This document shows positions 21,077-34,158 of a stretch of 36,091 bases of DNA, in pieces (the first letter of the stretch is position 1; every line of letters begins with the position of its first letter). The stretch is from Bacteroidales bacterium. GTDB taxonomy: Bacteria; Bacteroidota; Bacteroidia; Bacteroidales; F082. The stretch lies in assembly GCA_015493215.1 (NCBI GenBank), contig WGDP01000129.1, positions 1 to 36,091 on the forward strand, given 5' to 3'. Made by a program: the position numbers and the translations under genes. The notes under the pieces were generated by a model. The model saw only the letters and a program-made list of their open reading frames with translations, did no database searches and was not told where the DNA came from.

Positions 21077-21565
21077 ATGAAAAAATTAATGATTTTAATG
21101 GTGTTTATCAGCACTATGGCATTTACTGCCTGCGGACAAAAAGAGCATGTACCTGCAAACGTAAAAACAGCCTTCTCTCAAAAATTTCCTGACGCAAAAA
21201 AGGTAAACTGGGACAAAGAAAATGCCCATGAGTGGGAAGCAGAATTTAAAATGAACGGCAAAGCGTACTCAGCCAACTTCGCCACTGATGGTACCTGGAA
21301 AGAGACCGAATACAGAGTAAAAAGTTCCGAGCTTCCTGCAGCTGTGAAGTCAACTTTGAAAAGTGAATTCAAAGGATACGACCTTGAAAAAGCTGAAGTA
21401 TCGGAAACGCCCGAAGGAAAAGTTTTTGAAATGAAAATTGAAAACGACGACCACGACATGGAAGTGGTAATGGACGGCAATGGTAAAGTGCTGAAAAAAG
21501 AATCGAAAAAGGAGAATGATGAAGAGGGTGACAATGAGAATGACGAAGAAGGTGACAACGATTAA
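21077..21565 (+). CDS. PepSY-like lipoprotein with acidic tail
   Basis: 162 residues. A lipoprotein signal (MKKLMILMVFISTMAFTAC) predicts lipidation at Cys19. Two tandem PepSY-like units follow (VPANVKTAFSQKFPDAKKVNWDKE ... ; LPAAVKSTLKSEFKGYDLEKAEV ...), the arrangement of the PF11396 'putative beta-lactamase-inhibitor-like, PepSY-like' family common in Bacteroidota. The function of these proteins is unknown. The C-terminus is a perfect two-copy repeat of ENDEEGDN encoded by a 24-bp tandem duplication at 21512-21559. It is followed directly by a strong terminator, so it is probably monocistronic. Confidence 0.88.
   Translation: MKKLMILMVFISTMAFTACGQKEHVPANVKTAFSQKFPDAKKVNWDKENAHEWEAEFKMNGKAYSANFATDGTWKETEYRVKSSELPAAVKSTLKSEFKGYDLEKAEVSETPEGKVFEMKIENDDHDMEVVMDGNGKVLKKESKKENDEEGDNENDEEGDND
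21512..21559 (+). repeat. 24-bp tandem duplication encoding ENDEEGDN twice
   Basis: Codons at 21512-21535 and 21536-21559 encode the same eight residues with three synonymous third-base differences. This indicates duplication followed by drift with the protein sequence kept. Confidence 0.85.
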
Positions 21566-21573
21566 CAAAAAAC

Positions 21574-21606
21574 GGGCTTTGTGTTTACAGCGCAAAGCCC
21601 TTTTTT
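21574..21606 (+). terminator. Rho-independent terminator after the PepSY-like gene
   Basis: GGGCTTTGTG (21574-21583) pairs with CGCAAAGCCC (21591-21600) with one wobble, followed by six Ts. It lies 9 bases past the stop codon. Confidence 0.88.
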
Positions 21607-21631: not shown

Positions 21632-21664
21632 AACCAAACCTTTTTAATCGTTGTTTATCTTATT
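21632..21664 (+). promoter_or_regulatory. Weaker copy of the ECF-like promoter, upstream of the TetR-like gene
   Basis: AACCAAACCTTTTT followed by ATCTTATT, with exactly 17 bases between the AAC at 21637-21639 and the ATC at 21657. The same AAC-N17-ATCTT spacing occurs at 24745-24777 and 31138-31170. The -35 side matches 6 of 8 bases of CACCCAAC. The leader before ATG 21690 would be short. Confidence 0.4.
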
Positions 21665-21689: not shown

Positions 21690-22223
21690 ATGAGACAAGT
21701 ATCACACTACAGCATGCCCTTTAGTGGCAATATTACCAAACGCATATACAATTCAGGTATTAGCATGCAGGCAATTGAAAAGTGGAACAGCTTGCAGGTT
21801 ACCATTGATTTAGCACTATGTAGAACAGAAAAAAATGCCATCGACACGTTGCTTTATATAAGCAGGGAATTTGCTGACCATCGAAAATATCATTTTACAA
21901 ATTTTAATGATGATGACAGAATACGGCAAATTAATATTGATAATTTTACCCAACGCGTTGAATTTGTTAAAAAAGGAATATTGATGAATTTTATCCTCGG
22001 GCAAAAACAGGGTATCTATCGGAATGATATAAGCCCGGAGCTGGTTAGCAGAGCTTACGCCAAACGAATGATGGATTTACACAACACCAAAATCTTTCCA
22101 TCGCAAAGACTTACATATCAAATAATTTACAAAATAATGTTTGAAGACTTTATAAAAAGTATTTGCACCGAAAAAGGGTTAAAATATTATAATAATATTA
22201 TTAAAAGCAAGGAAAATAATTGA
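21690..22223 (+). CDS. TetR-like ligand-domain protein without a DNA-binding domain
   Basis: 177 residues. The C-terminal ~100 (VKKGILMNFILGQKQGIYRNDISPELVSR ... HNTKIFPSQRLTYQIIYKIMFEDF ... CTEKGLKYYNNII) match the C-terminal domain of Bacteroidota TetR/AcrR regulators, including the G-x-(Y/F)-R, IFP and TEKGL landmarks. The ~50-residue N-terminal TetR helix-turn-helix is absent: the protein begins MRQVSHYSMPFSGNITKRIYNSG, which does not fit it, and no such domain is seen upstream. It could be a sensor subunit that pairs with a full TetR protein, or a relic. The assignment rests on recognised motifs, not a search. Confidence 0.6.
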   Translation: MRQVSHYSMPFSGNITKRIYNSGISMQAIEKWNSLQVTIDLALCRTEKNAIDTLLYISREFADHRKYHFTNFNDDDRIRQINIDNFTQRVEFVKKGILMNFILGQKQGIYRNDISPELVSRAYAKRMMDLHNTKIFPSQRLTYQIIYKIMFEDFIKSICTEKGLKYYNNIIKSKENN

Positions 22224-24744: not shown

Positions 24745-24777
24745 CACCCAACTTTTTTTTAAGTAACAAATCTTTAT
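24745..24777 (+). promoter_or_regulatory. Candidate ECF sigma-dependent promoter of the sigma/barrel operon
   Basis: CACCCAACTTTTTTTT at 24745-24760, nine bases, then ATCTTTAT at 24770-24777. The same two blocks with the same spacing occur upstream of the barrel gene at 31138-31170. An AAC-containing -35 and a -10 about 17 bases further on are typical of ECF promoters. The -10 block ends only five bases before the sigma ATG, so the transcript would be nearly leaderless. Confidence 0.6.
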
Positions 24778-24782
24778 TATAG

Positions 24783-25355
24783 ATGCCGGGACATGAGCAC
24801 AATTACAAGAGACTTGTAAAAAAATGTATTAAAGGAGATGCCAAAGCACAAAAGATGCTTTATGATGTGCTATCGCCTAAAATGCTTAGCGTTTGCTTTC
24901 GGTATGCACGTAATAAAACTGATGCAGAAGATATATTTCAGTCGGGCTGGCTTAAAATATTTGAAAAACTCCATCAGTTAAAAAATGCAGATTTAATTGA
25001 GTGGTGGATGAAAAAGATATTTGTTAACGAAGCCTTGCAGTTTTATAATAAAACAAAACGAATTTCTTTTACCAGCGATGAATACATGCTTGAGCAGGAG
25101 AATAACAGTGACATAAGAATAATTCATGATTTTCACCACGATCAAATAACAAAGTTGATTCAGGATTTGCCTAATAAAATGCGAATGGTATTTAACTTGT
25201 ACATAATCGAGGGGTTTTCGCATAAAGAGATTGCAGAAATGATGAATGTTACGGAGGGTACTACCAAGTCGAACTTGCATGATGCAAGAAAAATCCTTCA
25301 AAAAAAAATACGGCTGCTAAATGCTGAAGCATTTCAAAAATCGAACGGCGCATGA
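24783..25355 (+). CDS. ECF-type RNA polymerase sigma factor
   Basis: 190 residues, standard for ECF factors. Region 2 is clear (CIKGDAKAQKMLYDVLSPKMLSVCFRYARNKTDAEDIFQSGWLKIFEKL, ~15-62), and region 4 follows (IQDLPNKMRMVFNLYIIEGFSHKEIAEMMNVTEGTTKSNLHDARKIL, ~126-172) with its recognition helix. There is no extra C-terminal domain. The stop overlaps the start of the barrel-fusion gene by four bases (ATGA), the layout of a sigma/anti-sigma pair. An element shared with the promoter region of a downstream envelope gene lies immediately upstream, suggesting autoregulation. The start is fixed by the distance to region 2. Confidence 0.93.
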   Translation: MPGHEHNYKRLVKKCIKGDAKAQKMLYDVLSPKMLSVCFRYARNKTDAEDIFQSGWLKIFEKLHQLKNADLIEWWMKKIFVNEALQFYNKTKRISFTSDEYMLEQENNSDIRIIHDFHHDQITKLIQDLPNKMRMVFNLYIIEGFSHKEIAEMMNVTEGTTKSNLHDARKILQKKIRLLNAEAFQKSNGA

Positions 25356-26872
25356 AAATAAATTTACATAATACCGATGATTTTGATAGCTTTTTCAGAG
25401 AGAAATACGAAAAAGATACCATTAATCCGTCGCCTGAGCTTTGGGAAAGTATCAGTCAAAAACTAACATACAAAAGTGTTTATTCAAACTATCGTAATAT
25501 TACAATGCTTAAAGTTGCCGTGGTTGTGCTGGCTATTGCCTTGGTTAGTGCCGTTTTGTACTTTGAAATTTCTTTAAGCAATACCAATTTAAACAATCAA
25601 AAGGTTTTAACTAATAAAGTAGAAGAAGTAAAACAAGATGGTTTAATCGAAAATCAAAATATTTTTCAGGATAACGTAACAATGCAGGAGGAAATTGATA
25701 CGGAAACAGCTATACACTCACAAAAAAATAAACAAAACCAAATAGTTATTTCAACCAAAAAAAGGAAAACAACAACAACTGTTTCAACCCCTTTAGAACA
25801 TTTTAAATCAGATGTGAAAAACCATCAAAAAGTAAATAAAACTGACATTGACCATAAAAGTAAAAAGAGTACTACCCGGTTTGCTTATGACACGCATACA
25901 ACATCCGCAAGTAAGAAACCAACGCCTGTTAAAATTACTAACAAGGATAAAAATAAAACTAATAAAGAAACAGATAAATCTACTATTGTTACAAATCCTG
26001 AGAAAGATAAAACTCCTGTAATTTATAGTGAAAATAAAACCAAAGTAAAAACCGGAACAACTAATATTGCTGATAATAATTACTTGTTTAATACAGATTC
26101 CGTTTATGATTATAACAGTAAAAACGAAAATATACAAGTAGTTGATAAAAAAGCGAATTTTAAAAAGTTTGTTAACCGATTTTCCATCGGAATATACGCG
26201 ACCCCACAGTATTCATTTAGGTTTTTGTCGGCAAATAGTACCTACTCAGTGCCTGACATTGGGAAAGAGTATTTTAATGACCGTGAAAAAGGGGCTTTTA
26301 GCTTTACCGCCGGGTTGCAACTTTATTACTCGTTAAACAACAAATGGAAACTATCAACAGGAGCTGAATATTCAACCTATTCTCAAAACATGGAGCTAAA
26401 CGGTTTTGATTTTAAACAAGACAATCAAAATGGTTACTATGTTTATACCTCTATTGGTAAGGATAATTTAACTATTAATTCATCGGTACCGGTTAGCGAT
26501 TCCGAATTTATCAAATCGTCAAAAGTTTATTCCTTTATTAATATTCCCTTGGGGATTGAATATAGCATAACCAACAACTTTTTTGTGAATGGCAGCTTAG
26601 TATATAGTTTATTGGTTTCGTCTGATGTAAACTGGAAAGCCGAAGATTTTAACGGCGATTTCTCGGTTTCCACTGATAATATTACAGGTATTAACGCGAA
26701 TAATTTTTCAGTAATGCTGGGGATTGGATACAAAAAAGCATTTGGCTCAAAATTTAGCGTGGTGGTAAACCCGCAGGTTTCTTCGTTTGTGACATCATTT
26801 ACCTCTAAAATGCCCGTAAAAACATATCCTTTTGCAGCAGGCTTAAATATAGGGTTAAGATATAAATTGTAG
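25352..26872 (+). CDS. Possible anti-sigma/outer-membrane-barrel fusion protein
   Basis: 506 residues in four parts. Residues 1-50 are soluble (DDFDSFFREKYEKDTINPSPELWESISQKL), resembling the N-terminal segments of Bacteroidota proteins encoded next to ECF factors. Residues ~52-72 form one transmembrane helix (MLKVAVVVLAIALVSAVLYF). Residues ~75-265 are a Lys/Thr/Asn-rich low-complexity linker. Residues ~270-506 look like an eight-stranded outer-membrane barrel of the PorT/OmpA-like size (FSIGIYATPQYSFRFL ... AAGLNIGLRYKL). There is no cleavable signal peptide. The stretched linker is more than long enough to cross the periplasm, so one chain could connect sigma factor and outer membrane. The start overlaps the sigma stop (ATGA). 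Anti-sigma activity is inferred from context only. Confidence 0.75.
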   Translation: MKINLHNTDDFDSFFREKYEKDTINPSPELWESISQKLTYKSVYSNYRNITMLKVAVVVLAIALVSAVLYFEISLSNTNLNNQKVLTNKVEEVKQDGLIENQNIFQDNVTMQEEIDTETAIHSQKNKQNQIVISTKKRKTTTTVSTPLEHFKSDVKNHQKVNKTDIDHKSKKSTTRFAYDTHTTSASKKPTPVKITNKDKNKTNKETDKSTIVTNPEKDKTPVIYSENKTKVKTGTTNIADNNYLFNTDSVYDYNSKNENIQVVDKKANFKKFVNRFSIGIYATPQYSFRFLSANSTYSVPDIGKEYFNDREKGAFSFTAGLQLYYSLNNKWKLSTGAEYSTYSQNMELNGFDFKQDNQNGYYVYTSIGKDNLTINSSVPVSDSEFIKSSKVYSFINIPLGIEYSITNNFFVNGSLVYSLLVSSDVNWKAEDFNGDFSVSTDNITGINANNFSVMLGIGYKKAFGSKFSVVVNPQVSSFVTSFTSKMPVKTYPFAAGLNIGLRYKL

Positions 26873-26883
26873 GTTGATTTATT

Positions 26884-27060
26884 GAACTTGTTTAAAGTTA
26901 ACCTAATGATAATGAGTGTAAAATATTGTAAATCAGAAAATGAATTCCAACATTCCCCTCCTCGGAGGGGATTAAGGGGTGGGTCTATTAAAAAATATAT
27001 TCACTTTTCTGATTTACAATATTTTGCCAGTAGTTCAAATAAAAGACTTTAAACAAGTTC
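26884..27060. repeat. 177-bp nested palindrome, possible MITE or structured RNA
   Basis: Outer arms are GAACTTGTTTAAAGT (26884-26898) and ACTTTAAACAAGTTC (27046-27060), a perfect 15-bp inverted repeat. Inner arms at 26920-26940 and 27005-27025 are a perfect 21-bp inverted repeat. The centre holds the hairpin CCCCTCCTCGGAGGGG (26955-26970) followed by ATTAAGGGGTGGG, a motif I recognise as a frequent intergenic repeat in Bacteroidota genomes. It occupies most of the gap between the barrel-fusion gene and the exporter gene and contains no coding frame. It may be a miniature inverted-repeat element or a strong RNA fold acting as a terminator or processing site. Confidence 0.75.
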
Positions 27061-27127
27061 ATTAATAATTTAACATGCACAGCTATACACCAAACCGTGA
27101 GAAACCATTTTTAATACACAATGATGC

Positions 27128-29266
27128 ATGCTGATAAAAAAATATGTTAAATATATCTATTCTGTTTCGTCAAAGCCTGCAATTCTTTATGCTTTAATAG
27201 GATTGTTACTTGTTTTGAGCTATCCTGTTGTAAATATGCATACTGACAGCGATGGAAGCGGATGGCTCCCAAAAGACTCAAAAAAGCTGATTATAAAAAA
27301 TTTATATCAGGAAAAATTTGGCAGCGATGAAATCGTAATTGTTTACCTTACTTTTCCTGATACTGTATCCGAAGCGGGTCATTTAAAGGTGTTGAAACAA
27401 ATTACCGACAGCATCACAAAAAATATTCACGGTTTTGAAAGTGTTTTTTCGGCTTATAATATCGACCGTTTAAAACGGGTTACCGGTACTAAGTATGCCA
27501 TGCAGATGAAAAAAAATTATTTCAATGCTAATGATAAGTATGGCGAAATTATTTTTTTAAAACAAAAATTAACAAAGGATTTAATTGATGATCGTGCCTT
27601 TTTAATAGATTCTCTTCGTAATACATTAAGAGGAATACTTCCGGAAGGAGTAAAAACAGATATTTCGGGCACCGGTATAGTTTTCGATGAAATCAACCGG
27701 TTAAGTACTACCGATTCGATAAAATTATTTTCACTCTGCTTTATACTTATCATCCTTCTTTTGTGGTGGCAGGTTAAAAAACTAAGTTACATGCTAATAA
27801 GCTTAGGTCTCGTGTTTTTAACAATGATACCTTCTTTGTCGTTATTTGGTTGGCTGAATGTGCCTTTTAATATGATTACAATGACAGTACCCCTGCTATT
27901 TGCAATCAATTTTTCTTCCTATGCAATCCACTTTATAACAAGGCAAACGAGCAATATTAATAAATATGTGACAAACAAAATACCCCCGGTTTTTACTTCG
28001 GCATTGGCTTCAATTATAGGGTTCGGCTCATTATCTATCAGTAATATAAAAATAATTTCTCAATTTGGTGTGCTTACATCATTGGGTATTTTAGTGGGAT
28101 TGCTGATCCTGTTAGCAGTTGGAATACCTTTAACGGTGAAGCTTGTTGGTGTAAATAAAGCAGTGCTAAATAGTAGTAAGCTAACTACTTTTTTGACTAA
28201 CTATTACAAAAAGCTAAATCATTCCAAATCAGTTGCTCTATTTATTTTGGTTATCAGCATTATTCTTTCAGCAATATTTGTTTTTCCTAAAATCAGGGTT
28301 GATACAAATATGCTGCATTTTATGAAACCCAACAACAAAGTTCGTAGGTCAGTCGAGTACATTCAAAATAGATATGGGACTGCAAACATGATTGAATTGA
28401 TGGCGGTAAAAACCGACACAACAGTACTATCGAATAACGATTTAAAAGCAATTCATAAATTGGCACAAAAGCTTGAAGATATGCCTGGTATTAGCAACGT
28501 TGTTGATTACAGGCTTTGGTATCCTGTAATTGCCAGGTTGTCGTTTAATAATCCTCCATTATCAAAAAAATTATCAAAAGCTTTTTTAACCGACGATAGA
28601 AAGTATTCAAAATTAACGTTAACCATACCAACGGGGTCGGTTAACGAAATGAATAACATACTCATAGCCATTAAGCAAACCATCAAAAAAGAAATCGGGA
28701 GTACAAAAATGGCCGTCTATCCGGCCGGGTATTTGCCATTGTACATCGAACAAATGGATACCATTGTAAAAGGAATGTTGTCAGGTTTAGCATTAGCAGT
28801 AGTGCTTATTTTAGTGGTAATGGTTGTGCTTGTGAAAAATATTAAACTGGGCTTAATAACCATATTGGTAACTACTTTTCCACTTTTTTCCATAGTGCTA
28901 ATCATGTATTTTTTATCTATTCCAATCGATGTTGGAACTTCAATTATCTTTTCCGTTTTAATAGGAATGATTGCTGATGATGCACTGCACATTATTTGGA
29001 ATTACAGACAAAATTTAACACTAACGGGGGATAAAAAATTACCCACAAATGAAATCTTCAGCAGGTCGGTTAAAAAAATTGTTTATCCCTGCATTGTTAC
29101 ATCCATAATGTTTTCTGTAGGGTTTAGCGTGTTGGGTTTTAGCAACATGTCAATTATTGAGAATTTTGGTTTGCTCGCAACAGCGACTATAATACTGGCA
29201 TGGGTAAGCGATTTTCTTTTCTTTCCTGCCCTGCTCAATATTTTTTACTGGTCAAATAATAAATAA
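27128..29266 (+). CDS. MMPL/RND-family exporter
   Basis: 712 residues in two homologous halves. Each half has a transmembrane helix, a ~150-residue extracytoplasmic loop (about 36-195 and 390-545) and a bundle of five further helices, giving twelve in all. SGWLPKDSKKLIIKNLYQEKFGSDEIVIV and the second-half VRRSVEYIQNRYGTANMIELMAV fit COG1033-type 'predicted exporters of the RND superfamily', as do the GMIADDALHIIWNYRQN and central ATLL-type segments. Such proteins move lipids or hydrophobic molecules out of the inner membrane using the proton gradient. It is followed within 7 bases by a PAP2-like gene and then a glycosyltransferase, suggesting a lipid-linked substrate. Confidence 0.87.
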   Translation: MLIKKYVKYIYSVSSKPAILYALIGLLLVLSYPVVNMHTDSDGSGWLPKDSKKLIIKNLYQEKFGSDEIVIVYLTFPDTVSEAGHLKVLKQITDSITKNIHGFESVFSAYNIDRLKRVTGTKYAMQMKKNYFNANDKYGEIIFLKQKLTKDLIDDRAFLIDSLRNTLRGILPEGVKTDISGTGIVFDEINRLSTTDSIKLFSLCFILIILLLWWQVKKLSYMLISLGLVFLTMIPSLSLFGWLNVPFNMITMTVPLLFAINFSSYAIHFITRQTSNINKYVTNKIPPVFTSALASIIGFGSLSISNIKIISQFGVLTSLGILVGLLILLAVGIPLTVKLVGVNKAVLNSSKLTTFLTNYYKKLNHSKSVALFILVISIILSAIFVFPKIRVDTNMLHFMKPNNKVRRSVEYIQNRYGTANMIELMAVKTDTTVLSNNDLKAIHKLAQKLEDMPGISNVVDYRLWYPVIARLSFNNPPLSKKLSKAFLTDDRKYSKLTLTIPTGSVNEMNNILIAIKQTIKKEIGSTKMAVYPAGYLPLYIEQMDTIVKGMLSGLALAVVLILVVMVVLVKNIKLGLITILVTTFPLFSIVLIMYFLSIPIDVGTSIIFSVLIGMIADDALHIIWNYRQNLTLTGDKKLPTNEIFSRSVKKIVYPCIVTSIMFSVGFSVLGFSNMSIIENFGLLATATIILAWVSDFLFFPALLNIFYWSNNK

Positions 29267-29273
29267 TAAATAA

Positions 29274-29900
29274 ATGAAAAACATGAAAAATAAACTGGCT
29301 CATATAGTTTCGATAGTATTCATACCATTACTGTTGCCAACCTATCTTTTTGCAATTATCTTGTTCAATCTGCCGGAATTGGCTCATATATCCTCTATCA
29401 ATGATAAACTAATACTTTTGTTAAGTTTGGCAATAGTTACCGTTTTGCTGCCTGTAACAGTAGTCTTTGTTTTATATAAATTTAGAGTTATCTCTTCTCT
29501 GTTTCTTGTCAATAGAGAAGACAGAAAAACACCTCAGTTAATCTCTCTTTTAATGTATGGGGTTTTTACCATTTTTTTATTTTTAAGATATGGATCAGGC
29601 AATATCCTATCCGTAGTTATGGCAATAAACACCGTTAGTTTATTGGCCATTGCTATTATTACTAATTATTGGAAGATTAGCACTCATACTTCGGGTGCCA
29701 TGGGGTTTTCTGCCATTCTACTGGTGTTGCTCACAAATTATTTTTCTGTTGGCTTGTTGGTTCTTTTCTTATTGGCAGCTACACTAACCATTGCTGTTTT
29801 TTATGCAAGGCTATATTTAAAAGCACATACGCTTAAGCAGGTTTTGCTGGGGGGATTATTGGGTACAATATCCGGATTGAGTTTAATTTTTTTCATTTAA
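29274..29900 (+). CDS. PAP2-like membrane phosphatase (divergent)
   Basis: 208 residues, about six transmembrane helices. Three spaced motifs resemble the phosphatidic-acid phosphatase signature: NREDRKTPQ (~80), KISTHTSGAMGF (~140, corresponding to PSGH) and ARLYLKAHTLKQVLLGGLLG (~180, corresponding to SRxYxxxHxxxDVxxG). The third keeps Arg and His but has Gln in place of Asp. Members dephosphorylate lipid phosphates or lipid pyrophosphates at the inner membrane. It sits between an exporter and a glycosyltransferase in an apparent operon (gaps 7 and 12 bases). ATG 29283 is an alternative start. Confidence 0.75.
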   Translation: MKNMKNKLAHIVSIVFIPLLLPTYLFAIILFNLPELAHISSINDKLILLLSLAIVTVLLPVTVVFVLYKFRVISSLFLVNREDRKTPQLISLLMYGVFTIFLFLRYGSGNILSVVMAINTVSLLAIAIITNYWKISTHTSGAMGFSAILLVLLTNYFSVGLLVLFLLAATLTIAVFYARLYLKAHTLKQVLLGGLLGTISGLSLIFFI

Positions 29901-29912
29901 AACTATAGTCAA

Positions 29913-31106
29913 GTGAGAATATTGCATGTAACAGATACGTCAATTTACAATTATGATGGCATATCAACTTATATTAATGAAATATTAGAAGTATCGGAAA
30001 ACCAAGGCCACACGTCTCTGGTTCTAACCAACAAACCTTTTGGAAAAAAACACAGGGAATTTGGCATGCGCGAAAACACTAAAATTCATCTGTTTAAATG
30101 TTTTAGGTTTCCGGGTAAACCAAGCTTTGTTATTACTTATCCGGTTGGAATTAATAAGATAATTGAAGATTTCAATCCTGATTTAATATGGATACACACC
30201 ATTGGAACATTGGGTACAAAAGCTGCTCGCATAGCCCAAAACAGGTATAAGGTGATATATACAAAGCATTGTTTTGACGGTGAATTGTGGAATGCCTATC
30301 TGCGAATACCAAAATACTTTCATTGGTTTTTCAATTATGCGGCACAGCATTTTGAAAACAAAATACTTAAAGTAAGTAAAAAGGTTGTTTATCACCTTAA
30401 CGATATCTCAAAGGTTAAATCCTCTCCATATTTTCATAAATTTATTACCGTCTCTCCTCCGCTTAATGCGCGCTTTTTTGAAGGCAAGCCGTTAAAACAA
30501 AACAATCCGAAGACATTAACATTTGGGTTTTGTGGCCGTGCAGAGCCTGATAAAGGAATTGAAAATACTTTTAGGGGATTAAGCCTCTTAAAAGAAAAAT
30601 ACAAATTTTCCGACTTTAGGTTTGTTTTTATTGGCGATGGATCAGAAGCACATCGGATGAAAGAAATGTATGCTGATATTGACATTAAAATAACCGGGTA
30701 CGTTAACGATGTAATTCCCTATTTAGATTCGCTGGATGCCATGGTAATTTCATCATTGCAGGAAACAATATCGCTGTCATCGTTAGAAACTTATGCCAGG
30801 GGCGTTTCAATTGTATCGTTGCCAATAGGATATTTGTACGAGCATAAAGAAAAGTTGAGCAACTATTACGTTTTTCACTCAACCGATGAGATGGCCTCGC
30901 ACTTGTATCAGCATGTTGTTATGGCCAAAAAAACGACAGCCAATACTGATATCCGATCGATTAGCGATTTTTTAATTGATTATCCCGGACTGCTGGCAAT
31001 TGCTACTGCCAAAAACGAAACAGCGTTTACTTTTATACCTCTAAGACTTGGAGATATTCGGTTTGAGATTGATAATAAACCGATTACTCAGCAAGTTGGC
31101 ATATAA
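29913..31106 (+). CDS. Family 4 glycosyltransferase
   Basis: 397 residues from a GTG start, GT-B fold. The N-terminal half begins MRILHVTDTSIYNYDGISTYI and includes DLIWIHTIGTLG. The C-terminal donor-binding half starts at GFCGRAEPDKGIENTFRGLSLL and contains FIGDGSEAHRM and the E-x7-E motif ETISLSSLE, typical of GT4 enzymes. It transfers a sugar from a nucleotide donor to an acceptor that is unknown. The upstream PAP2-like and exporter genes suggest a lipid acceptor such as a glycolipid. No other polysaccharide genes are nearby, so a capsule or O-antigen locus is unlikely. Confidence 0.9.
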   Translation: MRILHVTDTSIYNYDGISTYINEILEVSENQGHTSLVLTNKPFGKKHREFGMRENTKIHLFKCFRFPGKPSFVITYPVGINKIIEDFNPDLIWIHTIGTLGTKAARIAQNRYKVIYTKHCFDGELWNAYLRIPKYFHWFFNYAAQHFENKILKVSKKVVYHLNDISKVKSSPYFHKFITVSPPLNARFFEGKPLKQNNPKTLTFGFCGRAEPDKGIENTFRGLSLLKEKYKFSDFRFVFIGDGSEAHRMKEMYADIDIKITGYVNDVIPYLDSLDAMVISSLQETISLSSLETYARGVSIVSLPIGYLYEHKEKLSNYYVFHSTDEMASHLYQHVVMAKKTTANTDIRSISDFLIDYPGLLAIATAKNETAFTFIPLRLGDIRFEIDNKPITQQVGI

Positions 31107-31137
31107 AAATCATTCCTTCCCAAAAAAATCATCATTC

Positions 31138-31170
31138 CACCCAACTTTTTTTTCCGCTAATCATCTTTAT
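31138..31170 (+). promoter_or_regulatory. Second strong copy of the ECF-like promoter
   Basis: CACCCAACTTTTTTTT (31138-31153), nine bases, then ATCTTTAT (31163-31170): identical blocks and spacing to the site before the sigma gene. Three further matches (AT and G) follow the -10 block. The leader to ATG 31212 would be about 35 bases. Confidence 0.6.
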
Positions 31171-31211: not shown

Positions 31212-32054
31212 ATGAACAAATTAGTATTATTATCGATGATTGCCATGCTGTTTAGCGCCCCATTATGTGCGCAGGATGTTATTGTTAAAAAGGACAGCAC
31301 AACAATTAAAGCCAAAATAACAGAAGTAAATAAACACACGATTACCTATAAAAAGGCCGATTATCCCGATGGACCGACTTTTCAAATTAAGAAAAGCAAA
31401 TTGCAGAAAATAGAGTACAAAAATGGAGACCAAACAGTTTTTGAAAAAAAGCATTTCTTTAAAAGTGAAAAACCTTTAACTGTGAGAGATGGCTGGCATT
31501 TGGGATTGCACTATACTCCGGGAATGAATGTGGCATTAACCAATGGCGCTGAACCTGTATTTGCCAATAATATGGGTTTTGATGCTAAATACTTTTTTAA
31601 TAATAACTGGGGTATAAAAACGGGGGTTTTGTATCAGTTTTTCGACATGGGTGAAAGCGGCGGCAATGGAGAAAATCTCTTCCGTGAAGATGGTACCCCT
31701 TCTGATAACGAAGACGGTGATAATGAAAATGATAACGATTTTATGGTTTCAGCCATTGGCGTACCTTTACACGCTGTTTTTACAAGCGGGAAAAGGCTGG
31801 GGGTAAACATCGAAGCGGGCGTATCCTATTTCTACCCGTTAAATTCACCGCTAAATACCAGTACCGGTTTTTCTGACAACGTGCTGCTTACAGCCGAAAC
31901 TTTGTTGGGAGGCTCATACAGGTTTAACTCCAAACTTGGTATTGATGCCGGTGTATTGTTGCAGGTTGACCTGGTAAACTATACAGGGCAAAAAAATAGT
32001 AACAACCTTTTTACAGGCTTGCAGCTGGGCGTTAGTTATAAAATCGGAAAATAA
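31212..32054 (+). CDS. Outer-membrane beta-barrel protein with small N-terminal domain
   Basis: 280 residues. The signal peptide (LVLLSMIAMLFSAPLCAQ) is followed by a ~65-residue beta-rich domain (DVIVKKDSTTIKAKITEVNKHTITYKKADYPDGPTFQIKKSKLQKIEY) that is frequent at the start of Bacteroidota outer-membrane proteins. From ~90 to the end is a PorT-like eight-stranded barrel (HLGLHYTPGMNVAL ... FTGLQLGVSYKIGK). An acidic stretch (TPSDNEDGDNENDND) lies in one loop. The gene is preceded by the CACCCAAC element shared with the sigma operon, so it is a probable target of that sigma factor. The lipoprotein gene 41 bases downstream probably shares the transcript. Confidence 0.85.
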   Translation: MNKLVLLSMIAMLFSAPLCAQDVIVKKDSTTIKAKITEVNKHTITYKKADYPDGPTFQIKKSKLQKIEYKNGDQTVFEKKHFFKSEKPLTVRDGWHLGLHYTPGMNVALTNGAEPVFANNMGFDAKYFFNNNWGIKTGVLYQFFDMGESGGNGENLFREDGTPSDNEDGDNENDNDFMVSAIGVPLHAVFTSGKRLGVNIEAGVSYFYPLNSPLNTSTGFSDNVLLTAETLLGGSYRFNSKLGIDAGVLLQVDLVNYTGQKNSNNLFTGLQLGVSYKIGK

Positions 32055-32095
32055 ACCTTAATAACCTAATTTATTAATCATTAAACCTTTGTATT

Positions 32096-32929
32096 ATGAA
32101 AAATTTAAGATTAATTTCAGCGATTGTCACCATTGGGGCAATTTTAATTATGAGTGCTTGCACCAAACAATCGTCCAGCAACCTCAAATCGTCAACCATC
32201 GCGGTAAAAGCGATTGCCTCTTCCGCAGCAGCATCAAGTAGTAGCCAGGCTTATCAGGTAGTTACAGCTTATGCCAACCTGGCTAATTTGCGCATTGAAG
32301 AAAACTCCGGAAATGATGGAGAAAACGTTGGAGGAGGTGACAATGACTCAATTCCTGATAACGACTCAATTGAAAATGGAGGCGAAGAGGGAGGTAATGA
32401 CTCAATACCCGACAATGACACCATACAAAACGAAAGCGAAAATGGTGGAAATGATGGCGGTGAAAATGGAAATGACGGTGGTACAGATAATAGCGATATT
32501 TCATTGCCCGGTCCATTTATGATGGATATTGCAAGTGGAACGGCATCATTAGGCCAAGTTAGTGTCTATCCCGGAACATTTAAAAAAGTTAACTTCGATT
32601 TTCAAACAACCACTTCGCTAAACAACCACTCGATTGTAGTTACCGGTAATTATACAGCTGCAGATGGAACAACAACGCCATTTACCATTAACTCTACCTT
32701 TACTAAAAAGGTGCAAATGTTGTTGGCTAATGGTGGCGTAACAGTTACAGCAAACAGTACTGTGGTAATAGATATCGTGTTTGATGTAAATGCATGGCTT
32801 TCAGGTGTTGATTTTGCTTCGGCAACAATATCCAACGACGAGATACTTGTTGACAACACACATAACACCGCACTGTTGGATACATTTGAAGCAAACCTAA
32901 ATACTTATGTTGAGCAGGAGAATAAATAA
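32096..32929 (+). CDS. Lipoprotein with Asp/Asn/Glu/Gly-rich repeats
   Basis: 277 residues. A lipoprotein signal (ISAIVTIGAILIMSAC) predicts a lipidated cysteine near residue 22. After an Ala/Ser-rich segment comes an acidic low-complexity region (~73-133) with repeats of GGNDSIPDNDSIENGG type. The C-terminal ~140 residues form a beta-rich domain (PFMMDIASGTASLGQVSVYPGTFKKVNFDF ... VIDIVFDVNAWLSGVDF) reminiscent of DUF4382-like lipoproteins, but I cannot assign a family with confidence. It follows the barrel gene closely and ends at a strong terminator, so the two form a transcription unit under the ECF-like promoter. It is probably a surface or periplasmic partner of the barrel. Confidence 0.8.
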   Translation: MKNLRLISAIVTIGAILIMSACTKQSSSNLKSSTIAVKAIASSAAASSSSQAYQVVTAYANLANLRIEENSGNDGENVGGGDNDSIPDNDSIENGGEEGGNDSIPDNDTIQNESENGGNDGGENGNDGGTDNSDISLPGPFMMDIASGTASLGQVSVYPGTFKKVNFDFQTTTSLNNHSIVVTGNYTAADGTTTPFTINSTFTKKVQMLLANGGVTVTANSTVVIDIVFDVNAWLSGVDFASATISNDEILVDNTHNTALLDTFEANLNTYVEQENK

Positions 32930-32949
32930 TTAACAAGTAATCTGTTTGG

Positions 32950-32978
32950 AGAACCGTCCATACCGGACGGTTCTTTTT
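32950..32978 (+). terminator. Rho-independent terminator after the lipoprotein gene
   Basis: AGAACCGTCC (32950-32959) and GGACGGTTCT (32965-32974) form a perfect 10-bp stem with a 5-base loop and a run of five Ts. Confidence 0.92.
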
Positions 32979-32988
32979 ATATTTGTGC

Positions 32989-34158
32989 ATGATAAAAAAG
33001 GTATTTGTTTTTGCAGTTATATTATTTTTCTTTAAGGCAATTGATGCACAAAATGCAGAAATTTTTAGCCCGCTAAACAACTATTCTGTCCAAGCCTCTT
33101 ACCAAATAGGCTATGTTTTTCCAACCAACGATTTTGTCCGTGGTGTTAATGCCGAAAGAGACACCATTGATGATTTTCAAACTTTTTCGGTTAAAATACT
33201 AAAACAAACCACGGGCGAAAAATTGTGGGAGCAACTTTATAACTATCCGGAATATGGCTTGGGTGTTTACGTTGCAGATTTTCAAAATCCCGAAGAAATT
33301 GGAAACCCCATCGCGTTATATGGCTATTTTAAAGCCCCTTTTTACCGATGGAAGAGGATTAACATAAATTACGAATTGGGTGCCGGCGTGGCCTTTAACT
33401 GGAAAAGTTACTCGCCTGCCAATCCCTATAATATTGCCATTGGTGCACCACTTACCGTTTACCTCGATTTGGGGGCAAATGCGCAGTTTCAATTAACGAA
33501 CCGGCTTTTTGCCGATATAGGCTTTAGCCTCACCCATTTTTCCAACGGTAAACTAAAATCGCCCAACTACGGCCTTAATACCATCGCACCAAAAGTGAGT
33601 TTAAAATATAAACTCTCGAAAAAACCTATCAATTTTATTCAACAAGATGTACCAAAGTATCATCCGGAAAATGAACTTTATGTGTCAGCTTATACCGGTA
33701 TTAAAAATATTTTATACGACAGCTTAAACATCGATGCTTCGGAAAAGTATGAAGGTGAATCGTACTACATCTTTGGGATTTCATCCGTTTTTAATCGTCA
33801 GATCAGCTATAAATCTAAAATTGGCATTGGTTTTTCAATGTCATACAATGGTTCGGTTGATGCGCAGGTTGCCGTTGACAATGGTGAACTTCAGGTAACC
33901 CCGGGGCCTTTTATCGACCATCTGCAAATAAGCCTCTTTCCTTCCTATGAATTAGTTATTAATAAGTTTTCTGTTATGCTGCAACCCTCGGTTTACATTT
34001 ACCGTAAGAAATTAAAAAACCAAACACCTGATTTTTATCAGCGGGTTGGCCTAAAGTATAACATGTTCAAAAATTTCTACGTGGGAGTTAACTTAAGAGC
34101 TTACAAATATTACATATCTGATTTTATTGAATGGAACCTGGGATACAGCTTTCTATAA
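32989..34158 (+). CDS. Acyloxyacyl hydrolase / PagL-like lipid A 3-O-deacylase
   Basis: 389 residues from ATG 32989. The signal peptide (KVFVFAVILFFFKAIDAQ) leads into a beta-barrel. The PagL catalytic segment is present as SLTHFSNGKLKSPNYGLNT, with His183 and Ser185 in HxS order. The family hydrolyses the 3-O acyl chain of lipid A in the outer membrane, altering its endotoxic and barrier properties. The C-terminal ~180 residues add more barrel-like strands, as in other Bacteroidota members, which are longer than Pseudomonas PagL. A TTG 6 bases upstream is in frame but ATG is preferred. It begins just after a terminator, so it must have its own promoter or rely on read-through. Confidence 0.83.
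   Translation: MIKKVFVFAVILFFFKAIDAQNAEIFSPLNNYSVQASYQIGYVFPTNDFVRGVNAERDTIDDFQTFSVKILKQTTGEKLWEQLYNYPEYGLGVYVADFQNPEEIGNPIALYGYFKAPFYRWKRININYELGAGVAFNWKSYSPANPYNIAIGAPLTVYLDLGANAQFQLTNRLFADIGFSLTHFSNGKLKSPNYGLNTIAPKVSLKYKLSKKPINFIQQDVPKYHPENELYVSAYTGIKNILYDSLNIDASEKYEGESYYIFGISSVFNRQISYKSKIGIGFSMSYNGSVDAQVAVDNGELQVTPGPFIDHLQISLFPSYELVINKFSVMLQPSVYIYRKKLKNQTPDFYQRVGLKYNMFKNFYVGVNLRAYKYYISDFIEWNLGYSFL

Follow-up and report, generated by a model that had tools for sequence, protein, structure and literature searches.

A candidate promoter element shared by an extracytoplasmic function sigma factor operon and neighboring envelope genes in a Bacteroidales genome

Contig WGDP01000129.1 of the Bacteroidales bacterium assembly GCA_015493215.1 (36,091 nucleotides, here called the window) carries a two-box element immediately upstream of a gene for an extracytoplasmic function (ECF) sigma factor at position 24783. 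Comparison with related genomes indicates, with a probability that we put at roughly 0.88, that this element is the promoter of the sigma gene, and that the sigma factor is autoregulated, is held by a Dma-type anti-sigma factor, and serves a small local envelope regulon. The sigma factor very probably controls itself and at least two neighboring sets of envelope genes. We infer that it recognizes the element and is sequestered by the Dma protein, and that a signal relieves this in the service of envelope lipid or outer-membrane remodeling. An autoregulated sigma factor with an adjacent envelope regulon had been proposed in a sequence-only reading of the window, and the comparison of sites in relatives supports that proposal.

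Copies of the element in the window and its genome

That reading had described two copies with identical blocks and spacing and a different spacer, and they were recovered exactly. CACCCAACTTTTTTTT-N9-ATCTTTAT, 33 bp long, occurs twice in the window, at 24745 to 24777 and at 31138 to 31170, and 0 copies were found in dinucleotide-preserving shuffles of the window. Genome-wide work was done by pattern searches in the assembly (3.9 Mb, 355 contigs, 96% complete), in which no match beyond these two was found at up to 3 mismatches; the reversed-pattern control also gave 0 matches. Identity between the two copies was 22% in the 9-base spacer and 28 to 33% in the 40-bp flanks, and because spacer and flanks are unrelated, a recent duplication is excluded. 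Exact matches to the family consensus, CCMAACYTTWT-N12-ATCTW, were found genome-wide only at these two sites and at a third, 21632 to 21664, which begins 31 bp after an intrinsic terminator (21574 to 21600). All three are intergenic, with the first A of ATCT placed 13 nt (sigma gene), 33 nt (TetR-like gene), and 49 nt (barrel gene) before the start codon. Apart from these sites and the sites in relatives described below, the element was essentially absent from the genomes searched. Seven one-mismatch consensus matches in the window's own genome were rejected as regulon sites, all 7 being within open reading frames (ORFs). Patterns with the spacing off by one base matched about as often as the reversed control or slightly more often; they serve as off-spacing controls, not as regulon members.

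Candidate promoters of orthologous sigma genes and element architecture

When other genomes were searched for the sigma factor, five near orthologues (48 to 63% identity; loci L059 to L063) were found, in metagenome-assembled genomes labeled Bacteroidales or Chlorobiota. The sequence (A/C/T)ACCCAACC was present upstream of the sigma gene in each of these loci, and in 6/6 orthologues, including the window, the element stood upstream of sigma with its ATCT exactly 25 bases past its first base. The window copy at 24745, the candidate promoter of the sigma-dma operon, comprises a CACCCAAC box (−35-like) and an ATCTT box (−10-like), with an offset of 21 from CAAC to ATCT. When a weight matrix was trained on the five external orthologue sigma promoters alone (window left out), its top three places in the window were 31138 (25.1 bits), 24745 (25.1 bits), and 21632 (25.0 bits), followed by a fourth at 14.7 bits; in 200 simulated windows, the overall maximum was 22.6 and the mean of the maxima was 14.3. 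The third site had been taken for a degenerate copy. Its AAC-N17-ATCTT geometry is indeed that of the two identical copies, but it is a full member, with 0 mismatches to the family consensus, and reads AACC like the orthologues where the two identical copies read AACT.

Exact matches in the five orthologue genomes were confined to the sigma loci. A second exact site was found in L059, L061, and L062, and one with a single mismatch in L060; these sites, which had no part in the training, scored 23 to 29, and the next place in those loci scored 16 or less. In these four relatives, the second copies lie downstream at a distance of 1 to 4 kb, each ahead of a unit with a lipoprotein gene or with thioredoxin and lipoprotein genes: they precede a homologue of the window lipoprotein gene at 32096 in L059 and L062, a thioredoxin-like gene and then such a homologue in L061, and a thioredoxin-like gene in L060. 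The window copy at 31138, upstream of the barrel gene at 31212 and the lipoprotein gene at 32096, is placed in the same way with respect to the lipoprotein unit. The gene order in L059 and L062 is sigma, dma, pagL, TetR-like gene, and lipoprotein gene; the same genes are scattered over 12.5 kb in the window, where separate elements precede the TetR-like gene and the barrel-lipoprotein pair. The sharing of the element with a "distant" outer-membrane gene therefore stands, but the adjective undersold the relation, as relatives have the homologous genes and the sigma gene in a single cluster. The two-part ECF promoter proposed earlier likewise gains comparative support, from the sigma promoters in 6/6 genomes, a second envelope unit in four, and an MMPL operon in a fifth. 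Many copies of a miniature inverted-repeat transposable element (MITE) in the genome, together with low-complexity T-runs, could suggest a chance match or a copied repeat, such as part of a mobile element, with no regulatory role. This explanation is already contradicted by the comparative data, given the unrelated flanks, the absence of the element elsewhere in the genome, and its retention in five other genomes, where its placement with respect to genes is the same, and we regard this explanation as having almost no chance of being correct.

The architecture was assessed over 13 sites from the six genomes plus G264, a further genome of the order. The box-to-box offset was the same in 13/13 sites, and the information per column was 1.36 and 1.06 bits in the two boxes, 0.30 in the spacer, and 0.22 to 0.26 in the flanks. 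The first box (ACCCAAC plus T-run) holds about 18 bits, and in both length and conservation the element exceeds many ECF promoters, as might be expected of an operator of a DNA-binding regulator or activator for which the sigma gene is merely one target. However, no dyad symmetry was found in the element, its boxes lie 13 to 49 nt before start codons, the same CAACC...RTCT pair recurs at a fixed distance in wider sigma-anti-sigma loci, and the TetR-like protein of the cluster has no helix-turn-helix (HTH). A sigma promoter is favored over a repressor operator because the boxes are asymmetric, their spacing is fixed, and the element is associated with sigma genes; the operator is in our view improbable.

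The six sigma factors with the element at offset 21 formed one clade (support of 99/95). Among 39 wider ECF-anti-sigma loci, CAACC...RTCT was found at offset 22 in 17 (0.22 expected) and at any other offset in 3 or fewer, so that the offset of the window clade is one base narrower than that of its wider relatives. The window's own genome holds five further related ECF sigma genes, two of which have upstream CAAC boxes with CGTCT or TGTCT instead. Judged from these sequences, the element represents a wider promoter type in a form specific to this clade, because the offset-21 sigma factors form one clade, the wider loci are at 22, and the second boxes of the paralogues differ. The presence of five paralogues, two of them with CAAC-type boxes upstream, would also suit a real promoter that a different ECF sigma factor from the same genome reads, with cross-talk. 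But upstream of the paralogues the second box is a different one and the element itself is absent; the element tracks the clade of the sigma factor at 24783, and we give reading by a paralogue little credence.

Autoregulated ECF promoters generally have an AAC-containing −35 region and a CGTC- or TCT-containing −10 region. Like these, the element has two asymmetric boxes with fixed spacing, 5' of the sigma gene and of its putative targets; unlike these, it has a clade-specific first box and a distance one base shorter than in wider relatives. A literature search for CAACCTTTT with sigma factor in Bacteroid* gave no match. Class SM6 of Flavobacterium psychrophilum is likewise a Bacteroidota ECF-type promoter and includes a sigma/anti-sigma operon, whereas the second box here is ATCTT (PMC9723704).

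The sigma factor, its predicted anti-sigma partner, and the genes behind the element

All window genes and elements described here are on the forward strand. The Das-like ECF sigma factor (24783 to 25355) has Pfam Sigma70_r2 and r4_2 matches. Its start codon lies 12 to 13 nt past the first base of the ATCT box (24770 to 24783 in the window and 1907 to 1919 in L063), and because the two are so close, the sigma mRNA would be leaderless or nearly so. TTG starts further down are apparently used by four sigma orthologues. At 1919 to 2723 in L063, the sigma ORF continues into part of a DUF347 gene, behind which a PepSY-like gene is doubled; this reflects a deletion or a misassembly.

The adjacent gene (25352 to 26872), which overlaps the sigma gene by 4 bp, encodes a predicted Dma-type anti-sigma factor, a partner that the sequence-only reading had not included. 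Its AlphaFold2 model, based on an alignment of 16 homologues, has short N-terminal helices (residues 8 to 20 and 28 to 37, with W31 nearly invariant in the alignment), a single transmembrane (TM) helix (46 to 76; a hydrophobic peak is at the same place in relatives), a disordered tether (77 to 271; predicted local distance difference test score [pLDDT] under 50), and a C-terminal beta-barrel (strands 277 to 505). Foldseek matches of the barrel in the PDB were OmpA, OmpX, NspA, and similar barrels. As modeled, the product has the four-part layout of the Dma family and is predicted to span both membranes. In Bacteroides thetaiotaomicron, Dma proteins consist of an N-terminal sigma-binding domain, a TM helix, a disordered tether, and a C-terminal barrel, with an ECF21 sigma factor encoded adjacently, and upon deletion of dma2, das2 and the genes next to dma2 were among the most induced; no promoter motif for the sigma factor is given in that paper (PMC13088901). 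The system described here resembles this Das/Dma pair in having an ECF sigma factor beside a protein with a sigma-binding-like N terminus, TM helix, tether, and barrel, and in its local, apparently autoregulated gene set; on this reading, the sigma factor would be ECF21-like, or Das-like. The system differs in its predicted targets (PagL-like, lipoprotein, barrel, and TetR-like genes and an MMPL operon) and in that two members of the clade have anti-sigma factors without the tether-barrel part (L060, 4869 to 5348, 159 amino acids [aa]; L061, 9528 to 9977, 149 aa), so that possession of the barrel varies within this clade. Both barrel-less anti-sigma factors are paired with a thioredoxin-like target gene.

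Behind the element at 31138 lie genes for an outer-membrane beta-barrel protein (31212 to 32054; Pfam OMP_b-brl_2, below the cutoff) and a putative lipoprotein with acidic repeats (32096 to 32929), whose homologues in L059, L061, and L062 each stand behind the second element copy. The lipoprotein matched no Pfam family, and its model (mean pLDDT of 63.5) had no PDB match with an expectation value (E) under 0.25. The next gene (32983 to 34158; ATG at 32989) encodes a PagL-like outer-membrane protein (PF09411, 51.1 bits versus a cutoff of 23) whose homologue belongs to the sigma operon in both L059 and L062; no PDB sequence match was found for it. The HFSN motif is present, and the window, L059, and L062 proteins all have Asn at position 12 counted from the Ser, where the spacing of the PagL His-Ser-Glu catalytic triad would call for Glu. 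The third element precedes a gene (21690 to 22223) for a TetR-like ligand-binding domain, which is 37 to 42% identical to residues ~75 to 200 of proteins of 202 to 247 aa with a TetR-HTH-looking N terminus. Its only Pfam match was a subthreshold one to TetR_C_17, and an N-terminal HTH is absent both from this protein and from its homologues in the sigma operons of L059 (12180 to 12674) and L062 (4984 to 5526). Acidic D/E/N/G-rich stretches (e.g., GDNENDEEGDND), possibly metal binding, were seen in several cluster proteins (window 21077 to 21565 and 31212 to 32929; L063 2842 to 3771).

The strict pattern ACCCAACYTTWT-N12-ATCTT, searched for in 393 genomes of the order, was found twice in the window, once in G264, and in no others; since the reversed control gave 2 matches in the same genomes, a chance match somewhere among them is expected. 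No additional strict-pattern site was found in 395 genomes sampled from the phylum. The G264 site lies ~150 bp (0.15 kb) before an operon orthologous to window positions 27128 to 31106, which encode a predicted MMPL-family exporter (27128 to 29266; Pfam MMPL), a PAP2-like membrane protein (29274 to 29900; a weak Pfam match below the cutoff), and a GT4-type glycosyltransferase (GT; 29913 to 31106). The three genes are conserved together in G264, with identities of 62% (MMPL), 46% (PAP2; L242), and 64% (GT), and G264 was the only one of the 393 genomes with a close MMPL homologue (E under 1e-100). Taken together, the gene content of the proposed regulon suggests outer-membrane or glycolipid remodeling.

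Proposed circuit and its significance

Several observations weigh against the circuit proposed here. The L063 sigma factor has no region 4 in its short contig. G264 carries the MMPL promoter but only distant relatives of the sigma factor (36 to 37%), and since its assembly is 83% complete, its own sigma factor may have diverged or may be absent from the assembled sequence. In the window, the MMPL operon lacks a separate element (best score, 1.3), and a MITE lies between dma and the MMPL gene, so that control of MMPL in the window is uncertain; the MMPL-PAP2-GT genes probably belong to the same regulon, by read-through from the sigma operon or through a promoter that was lost in this genome. 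Last, a strong terminator-like hairpin (32948 to 32976, 12 pairs) stands between the lipoprotein gene and pagL, and because it precedes pagL, expression of pagL from 31138 may be attenuated. Within the window, no promoter element was found before the MMPL, PepSY-like, metallophosphatase, or DUF347 genes. The MITE-like element (26875 to 27070, ~185 bp, long inverted repeats) had 81 matches in the genome, more than 10 of them near full length and 84 to 92% identical.

In the circuit that we favor, the cotranscribed Dma-type anti-sigma factor would hold the sigma factor at the inner membrane, with its C-terminal barrel in the outer membrane, presumably sensing the state of that membrane. Once released, the sigma factor would transcribe its own operon from 24745, a positive feedback, and would use the elements at 31138 and 21632 to transcribe the barrel-lipoprotein unit and the TetR-like gene, respectively. 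A more far-reaching version, which we consider rather doubtful, is that a separate Das/Dma-type clade has a promoter code of its own and directs a response that remodels outer-membrane lipids (PagL-like protein, MMPL-PAP2-glycosyltransferase export unit, and lipoprotein), in which the HTH-less TetR domain would be a ligand sensor acting on the sigma/anti-sigma pair, not on DNA.

Systems of this kind are known from Bacteroides; what is new is the clade-specific promoter, the gene content of the regulon, and the TetR-like protein without a DNA-binding domain. Dma-type anti-sigma factors, which reach across the entire envelope and in Bacteroides control vesiculation, are a recent addition to the field, and no promoter code for their sigma factors was found in the literature examined. 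Here, a regulon is predicted independently in several genomes, and its small size suggests what the sensor responds to. The comparison also yields two testable promoter codes, ACCCAAC-N17-ATCTT for this clade and the one-base-wider CAACC...RTCT of the 17/39 wider loci, and the differences in spacing and boxes between clades could be linked to residues of the sigma factors.
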